Below are positions 15,491 through 16,508 of a stretch of DNA of 42,218 nt, piece after piece. The stretch's first letter is position 1, and every line of letters begins with the position of its first letter. Made by a program: the position numbers and the translations under genes. The notes under the pieces are model-generated. The model was not told the origin of the DNA and did no database searches. It was given only the letters and a program-made list of their open reading frames with translations. The DNA lies in the NCBI GenBank assembly GCA_949295505.1, contig CASFLH010000027.1, positions 1 to 42,218 of the forward strand. Reading direction: 5' to 3'. Origin of the DNA: an uncultured Spirochaetales bacterium. GTDB lineage: Bacteria; Spirochaetota; Spirochaetia; Sphaerochaetales; Sphaerochaetaceae.

Positions 15491-16351
15491 TCACTCCGTC
15501 ATCTTCTCGATGTTCATTACGAGAATACCTTCAGCCCCCAGTTTCCTGAGCTCCTCAAAAACAGACCAGAAACGGCCTTCATCGACAGCTGACTGCACAG
15601 AAACCCAGCCCTTGTCCATCAGAGGAGTCACTGTAGGGCTTTTCATTCCGCCGATTACCCTCGCCGCTTCCTCAAGCTTCTCTTCCGGGAGGTTGAACAG
15701 GATATACTTCTGATGCCTTGCCAGCATCACTGCATCGATTCTTTCAAGGAGACGTGTAAGTATCGCCTTTTTCTCGTCTGGCATTCCAGGACGCGCAATC
15801 ATGATGGCGGATGAACGATAAATACACTCAGCCTCCTCCAGCCCGTTCATCTTGAGCGTAGTACCGGTTGAAACCAGATCGGCAATCGCATCCGCAATAC
15901 CGACTTCAACTGTAATCTCAACGGAGCCGGAAACAACCACGGGTTCAGCATTGACACCGTTTTCCTTCAGTATCCCTGAAAGAATGCGTGGATATGAAGT
16001 CGCGATACGCTTTCCCTCAAGAGACCGCAGCCCCTGATAATCAAAACCATGGGGTACAGCGATGGAGAGACGGCAGGAAGCAAACTTGAGATCCCTTATC
16101 ACATCAAGCTCGATACCGCTCTCATCATACTCATTCCGGCCGACTATCCCTATATCCGCAACACCATCCGCCACATACTGCGGGATATCGTCATCCCGGA
16201 CAAAAAGGAAATCCAGGGGGAAGCCTGAAGCGGAGGCCTTTAGCACACGGCTGTCCGCACTGAAATCGATTCCGCATGATCTGATCAGATCAAGGCTTTT
16301 CTCCGAAAGACGTCCACTCTTCTGAACTGCAATGTTGATTGTCGTTTCCAT
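15491..16351 (-). CDS. hisG: ATP phosphoribosyltransferase, long form
   Basis: The 286-residue enzyme performs the first, feedback-inhibited step of histidine synthesis. It is the long, self-sufficient form. Two catalytic domains span residues 1-210, with INIAVQKSGRL, DIGIVGRNEY, and DLVSTGTTLKMNGL as the PRPP loop. A C-terminal ACT-like regulatory domain of about 75 residues (KYILFNLPEEKLEEAARVI...KSPTVTPL) binds histidine. No HisZ partner is needed. The start METTIN at 16351 follows GGAGG by four bases; the frame is open further upstream but runs through the attenuator. It is preceded by the leader terminator at 16363-16398. Confidence 0.95.
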   Translation of the reverse strand: METTINIAVQKSGRLSEKSLDLIRSCGIDFSADSRVLKASASGFPLDFLFVRDDDIPQYVADGVADIGIVGRNEYDESGIELDVIRDLKFASCRLSIAVPHGFDYQGLRSLEGKRIATSYPRILSGILKENGVNAEPVVVSGSVEITVEVGIADAIADLVSTGTTLKMNGLEEAECIYRSSAIMIARPGMPDEKKAILTRLLERIDAVMLARHQKYILFNLPEEKLEEAARVIGGMKSPTVTPLMDKGWVSVQSAVDEGRFWSVFEELRKLGAEGILVMNIEKMTE

Positions 16352-16362
16352 ACATCCTCCAA

Positions 16363-16398
16363 GGAAAAAAGAAAAAGCCTCCCGCCACTGGGAGGCCC
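16363..16398 (-). terminator. his operon attenuator terminator
   Basis: On the minus strand GCCTCCC (16396-16390) pairs with GGGAGGC (16383-16377) around the six-base loop AGTGGC, followed by CTTTTTCTTTTTTCC. This strong intrinsic terminator ends only about 12 bases before the hisG start, in the leader rather than at a gene end, so it should act as a conditional terminator. Confidence 0.85.
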
Positions 16399-16434
16399 GG
16401 TATACAAAGGAACCCATCATGGCGTTGTCATGAT
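16383..16434 (-). promoter_or_regulatory. his leader alternative hairpins (pause hairpin and antiterminator)
   Basis: Two structures compete. The pause hairpin pairs ATCATG (16434-16429) with CATGAT (16421-16416), 6 bp around a 7-base loop. The antiterminator pairs CGCCA (16424-16420) with TGGCG (16387-16383) and GGG (16415-16413) with CCC (16392-16390), using the terminator's 5' arm and loop. A ribosome stalled on the His codons at 16455-16444 would cover the first arm of the pause hairpin, letting the antiterminator form. A ribosome reaching the stop at 16417 would block the antiterminator and favour termination. Pairing was done by eye, without energies. Confidence 0.7.
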
Positions 16435-16473
16435 AATCTCGCAATGATGGATATGTCCGTTTCTTCTTTCCAT
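16417..16473 (-). CDS. hisL: Histidine operon leader peptide, 18 residues
   Basis: The frame reads MERRNGHIHHCEIIMTTP then TGA. The codons CAT-ATC-CAT-CAT put three histidines in four positions, immediately before the hairpins that control hisG. There is no Shine-Dalgarno sequence; instead a promoter ends six bases before this ATG, predicting a leaderless message. An in-frame ATG at 16488 would add five residues (MYRFA) but lies inside the promoter. The peptide is expected to serve only as a sensor of charged tRNA-His. Confidence 0.72.
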   Translation of the reverse strand: MERRNGHIHHCEIIMTTP

Positions 16474-16479
16474 AGCAAA

Positions 16480-16508
16480 ACGGTACATGATGGAAAGTCG
16501 GGAGTCAA
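16480..16508 (-). promoter_or_regulatory. his operon promoter
   Basis: On the minus strand TTGACT (16508-16503), a 17-base spacer and TACCGT (16485-16480) precede the leader-peptide ATG by six bases. The -35 is strong and the -10 keeps only the TANNNT frame. The layout is the same as at nfo (TTGACA-17-TACCCT-6-ATG). Confidence 0.55.

Follow-up and report, generated by a model that had tools for sequence, protein, structure and literature searches.

The window analysed here, a stretch of 42,218 nt from an uncultured Spirochaetales bacterium, belongs to a draft genome of 1.76 Mb and carries on its minus strand a complete hisGDCBHAFI(E) operon, whose genes NCBIfam models assign one by one from hisG to hisIE (Table 1). 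An initial annotation, made from the letters of the DNA alone, had proposed that a histidine attenuator controls a spirochaete-like his operon at this place. The position of the leader, directly ahead of these genes, agrees with that proposal, and so does the host: HisG is 93% identical to its counterpart in locus L095, the closest named records are metagenome assemblies of uncultured Spirochaetaceae and Spirochaetales, and 46 of the 48 genomes searched of the same genus gave a HisG match, five of these being a short, distant HisG. Loci L056-L060 (genomes G060, G013, G022, G005 and G031), also of this genus, encode a different short HisG (an open frame of about 213-255 aa, 31-34% identical), and a leader of the present type is absent immediately 5' of that gene. 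Directly 3' of hisIE in the window lies a gene for a pentapeptide-repeat-like protein (8771-9367, minus strand), all of whose NCBIfam matches fall far under the cut-offs.

Table 1. Features of the his leader and operon in the window (positions are those of the whole stretch).
Feature	Position	Strand	Basis or remark
-35 element TTGACT	16503-16508	-	TTGAC-to-ATG distance conserved in homologous leaders
-10 element TACCGT	16480-16485	-	N17 after -35, 6 nt to leader ATG; TAnnnT type and spacing kept in relatives
Leader peptide ORF MERRNGHIHHCEIIMTTP, 18 codons	16417-16473 (including stop, 16419-16417)	-	ATG is the predicted transcription start
Regulatory codons His-Ile-His-His	16444-16455	-	His at 16455-16453, 16449-16447 and 16446-16444
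Segment 1: 5' arm of 1:2 hairpin, largely His codons	16440-16452	-	Ribosome-free fold and covariation
Segment 2: 3' arm of 1:2 and 5' arm of antiterminator (16423-16419, 16416-16413)	16412-16424	-	Folds and covariation
6-bp hairpin (UAUCAUG:CAUGAUG), alternative fold when segment 1 is masked	about 16415-16435	-	Masked folding
Segment 3: terminator 5' arm and loop; 16392-16384 pairs with segment 2	16384-16398	-	Folds and covariation
Intrinsic terminator stem-loop 3:4 (16398-16390/16383-16375)	16375-16398	-	Terminator search and folding
U-tract of terminator	about 16365-16376	-	Sequence and terminator search
GGAGG, hisG ribosome-binding site	16356-16360	-	Sequence; SD-like motif 5' of 69/69 hisG matches
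hisG, first operon gene	15491-16351	-	NCBIfam TIGR00070 and TIGR03455
hisD, hisC, bifunctional hisB, hisH, hisA, hisF, hisIE	9367-15494	-	NCBIfam

Two parts by which an attenuator is recognized lie between the promoter and hisG: a short leader ORF that contains codons for the amino acid the operon makes, and an intrinsic terminator ahead of the first structural gene. The 18-codon frame, its His-Ile-His-His stretch and the terminator with its U-tract are all present as initially described. The -10 element is weak, matching the consensus at 3 of 6 positions, for which reason a simple scan does not list the promoter. Compared with shuffled sequences the leader region folds well (z = -2.6; 1 of 200 shuffles equally good), and conservation at the 71 loci described next is a far stronger argument against chance than this score.

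We compared the leader with the DNA 5' of hisG from the same genus, family and class. Homologous leaders precede hisG at 71 loci in Spirochaetia, 39 of them in the same genus; the remainder are spread over further genera of this family and over families f3, f4, f5 and f17, with sporadic cases in f24 and f42. Every one of the 71 encodes a His-rich peptide of 11-27 residues, in which the flanking residues vary and the two histidine codons interchange (CAT 186, CAC 85). The His total is 3-5 in 70 of 71 leaders, and the longest His run is two in 12 leaders, three in 26, four in 23 and five in 10. The terminator search covered 69 leaders and found an intrinsic terminator in each. The initial annotation had this organism sense tRNA-His with only three, non-contiguous His codons; these are no sensing scheme of their own but the thin end of the His-run distribution of a leader that many Spirochaetia share.

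The distribution of the leader has limits. Among 20 further, more distant loci a His-rich frame occurs in two only (L293 and L294), and the majority of the more distant hisG genes, mostly of the Treponema type, lack a leader. Within the same genus it is absent before hisG at L016 and L021; there hisG comes after another gene and a common TTTGCTAGAGATTAGAATCC-like element flanked by complementary arms. A phylum-wide pattern search for leaderless poly-His frames returned the hisG leaders together with many apparent chance matches. For the family, none of the matches listed in a search for leaderless leader attenuators with Trp, Leu or Phe runs was convincing by eye, and the recurrent TGCGGTCGTGGTGG matches in that search look like tRNA-Leu genes.

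Folding of the window's leader gave structures that change with the position of a mock ribosome. In ribosome-free nascent RNA, segments 1 and 2 form a helix of 9+3 bp (16452-16444/16420-16412 and 16442-16440/16424-16422), and this conserved 1:2 pairing (AUCCAUCAU:AUGAUGGGU) has the His codons themselves as its 5' arm. Placing the A site on His7, His9, His10 or Cys11 makes the 2:3 antiterminator form (16423-16419/16388-16384 and 16416-16413/16392-16389), which consumes part of the terminator 5' arm; the folds bear out the antiterminator first proposed. When the mock ribosome sits at the stop codon, both 1:2 and 2:3 are absent. The terminator hairpin (3:4) wins in every full-length fold that includes the complete terminator, and the decision must therefore be kinetic, as in classical attenuation. 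Across 69 leaders, the terminator 5' arm is sequestered with a mean probability of 0.22 without a ribosome and 0.63-0.65 with a mock ribosome on the His codons; with one at the stop codon the value is intermediate (0.46), which marks the limit of static masks: they fail to give a clean prediction of termination in every species.

The alternative pairings also covary. We compared the duplex energy of true arms with that of arms swapped between species, using 50 leaders with distinct terminators and ignoring kinship, and true partners were better for all three helices (2:3, z -6.1; 1:2, z -5.8; 3:4, z -16.5); in each case 0 of 5000 permutations equalled them, and swapping thus weakens the helices. 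In the same test, again with kinship ignored, the signal for 2:3 persists outside the genus (z -4.3, 0/5000), where 1:2 is weak (366/5000), and the signal for 1:2 is found inside the genus (z -6.2, 0/5000), where 2:3 is weak (181/5000) because its arms vary little there. Column-wise pair counts in 26 genus sequences, which likewise ignore kinship, put 1:2 at 13 double-change cells, compared with 6.7 in shuffles (1/500). The same counts in these 26 sequences gave no covariation signal for 2:3, a conserved and nearly invariant helix that is 89% paired, and none for 3:4, whose terminator region aligns poorly. Retention of the pairings in relatives, proposed at the outset as a check, is thus seen in both the partner swaps and the 1:2 counts. 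The 6-bp pause hairpin first put forward does exist near 16435-16415 as an alternative fold, but it is not the conserved 1:2 pairing; with zero double changes in the 26 genus sequences, its absence from parts of the genus and the existence of the stronger 1:2 helix, we rejected it as the key pairing. The antiterminator and terminator, by these computed folds and covariation, are mutually exclusive in a manner that depends on ribosome position.

The distance of the promoter from the leader ORF is conserved. TTGAC lies 35-38 nt 5' of the leader ATG in 65 of the 71 leaders, and other offsets show no comparable excess; this count is independent of the choice of -10 element, and in the table of -10 assignments ties lean to the 6-nt gap. 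A spacer of 17-18 bp and a 6-nt discriminator put the leader ATG on the predicted first nucleotide, and the window's leader ATG has no SD before it. The ATG is accordingly predicted to be the 5' end of the transcript, as the first reading of a seemingly leaderless message had it. The conserved promoter is upstream of the leader ORF. In a rough contrast, an SD-like motif precedes 3 of 69 leader ORFs (L042, L047 and L055, searched over 15 nt) and 69 of 69 hisG genes (searched over 60 nt). The exceptions are informative. Four leaders of genus g29, L042, L044, L045 and L047, have TTGAC 49-65 nt upstream together with an SD (AGGAGG, AAGGAG, AAGGAG and AGGAG respectively), and beside these four SD-led species the genus has two with a leaderless-type leader, L043 and L046; L076 also has a longer predicted 5' UTR. 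Overall, an SD accompanies 4 of 5 far promoters and 1 of 66 near ones (Fisher p = 2.5e-5, from hand-assembled counts of species that are not independent). Such tracking of the SD with promoter distance is expected if the ribosome really initiates at the leader ATG.

A second predicted leaderless gene lies elsewhere in the window, with TTGACA-N17-TACCCT-N6-ATG at 39994-40031 on the plus strand and an ORF at 40029-40865 whose product looks like endonuclease IV. TTGAC stands 35 nt before its ATG, as it does in L315, L322 and L325; in eight other relatives it stands 45-51 nt upstream, several of them with an SD-like motif, an alternation that resembles that of the his leader.

We consider it highly probable that the leader attenuates transcription of the his operon by way of a translating ribosome and that its peptide is read from a leaderless start, and other explanations fare poorly against the same evidence. 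The closest to this reading keeps the attenuator and moves the promoter further upstream, placing the leader ORF on a longer 5' UTR. The weak -10, unlisted by the simple scan, would suit it, as would the longer predicted 5' UTRs of L076 and the four g29 sisters; yet those sisters are where an SD appears, the promoter being far from the ATG, while the window's leader has no SD and shares the spacing of the 65 leaders, and we judge a longer 5' UTR here unlikely. In a single genome three His codons in a short frame could be chance, and the terminator could then be constitutive or controlled by a protein, the His-rich frame being untranslated or unsensed. That view is very hard to reconcile with 11-27-codon His-rich peptides in all 71 leaders, kept through CAT/CAC interchange amid variable flanks, and with the covariation of mutually exclusive pairings.

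A T-box, or another riboswitch binding tRNA-His or a metabolite directly, has precedent in the T-boxes that govern his genes of Firmicutes and Actinobacteria (PMC9413887). The present leader, however, is short and largely coding. No Rfam family, T-box and RF00514 included, matched the window at the gathering score; a permissive Rfam search of the leader gave chance-level matches only, none of them a T-box; and the His_leader model RF00514 had no match up to E = 10 in 16300-16600. We give direct sensing by the RNA almost no credence.

Under the favoured reading, a leaderless ribosome-mediated attenuator, RNA polymerase would begin the message with the A of the leader ATG, and a ribosome would need no SD to load on the 5' end of the nascent transcript. 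When charged tRNA-His is scarce, the ribosome would stall on the His codons and occupy segment 1, the 2:3 antiterminator would pair, and polymerase would enter hisGDCBHAFI(E). When histidine is plentiful, the ribosome would reach the stop codon inside segment 2, blocking 2:3 and letting 3:4 terminate. Should no ribosome load, the strong 1:2 hairpin would form and transcription would probably terminate as well. From the anatomy, conservation, covariation and promoter spacing reported above we infer the transcription start itself, ribosome stalling and a response to histidine.

Enterobacteria are the classical case of ribosome-mediated his attenuation, and the E. coli operon has the order hisGDCBHAFI. 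The window's leader resembles hisL of E. coli and Salmonella (RF00514) in its His-codon leader peptide, its exclusive antiterminator and terminator and the order of the operon behind it; it differs in having three His codons instead of seven, in giving no RF00514 match, in using the His codons as the 5' arm of 1:2, in its predicted leaderless start and in its spirochaete host. Candidate his attenuators described in Firmicutes in 2022, with 3-5 consecutive His codons and alternative hairpins before his operons, share the His-codon leader and the hairpins as far as their description goes, in another phylum; the available text of that paper does not mention a leaderless start for them (PMC9413887). 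In Sinorhizobium meliloti the trpL transcript starts at the ATG of the attenuator leader ORF (PMC7298713), a leaderless leader like the one predicted here, for tryptophan and in an alphaproteobacterium; the spirochaete his leader class, by contrast, occurs both leaderless and SD-led among sister species. Mycobacterial polycysteine leaderless short ORFs, for cysteine and in Actinobacteria, are likewise amino-acid-responsive attenuators, as the title of the work states (Canestrari et al., 2020, cited in PMC13236596). For spirochaetes, the open-access literature searched, a scope that leaves most subscription journals outside, described neither a his attenuator nor a leaderless one; his attenuation and leaderless leader peptides both have precedents, and their combination is unreported in that literature.

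By identity, HisG of the window lies nearer to proteins of Bacteroidota (50-56%) than to HisG of the Treponema type (about 30%). In most of loci L107-L174, which come mainly from Bacteroidota, a short His-rich ORF precedes hisG, and these sequences suggest that his attenuators occur there too. Perhaps together with its attenuator, this type of operon may have been shared between Bacteroidota and Spirochaetia.

The leader extends ribosome-mediated his attenuation to Spirochaetia, with a leader peptide whose indicated leaderless form is kept across many genera, and it predicts a sensor of histidine starvation for spirochaetes. With leaderless and SD-led versions side by side, one genus offers a natural experiment on the way in which the loading of ribosomes sets the sensitivity of attenuation. 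More speculatively, and with low confidence, the leaderless start may itself be functional: loading on the first nucleotides of the nascent RNA would keep the ribosome in step with the start of transcription, so that his expression would also sense the state of 70S ribosomes and initiation factors. That state would then be a second input beyond the charging of tRNA-His, and switching between leaderless and SD-led leaders among sister species would tune it.
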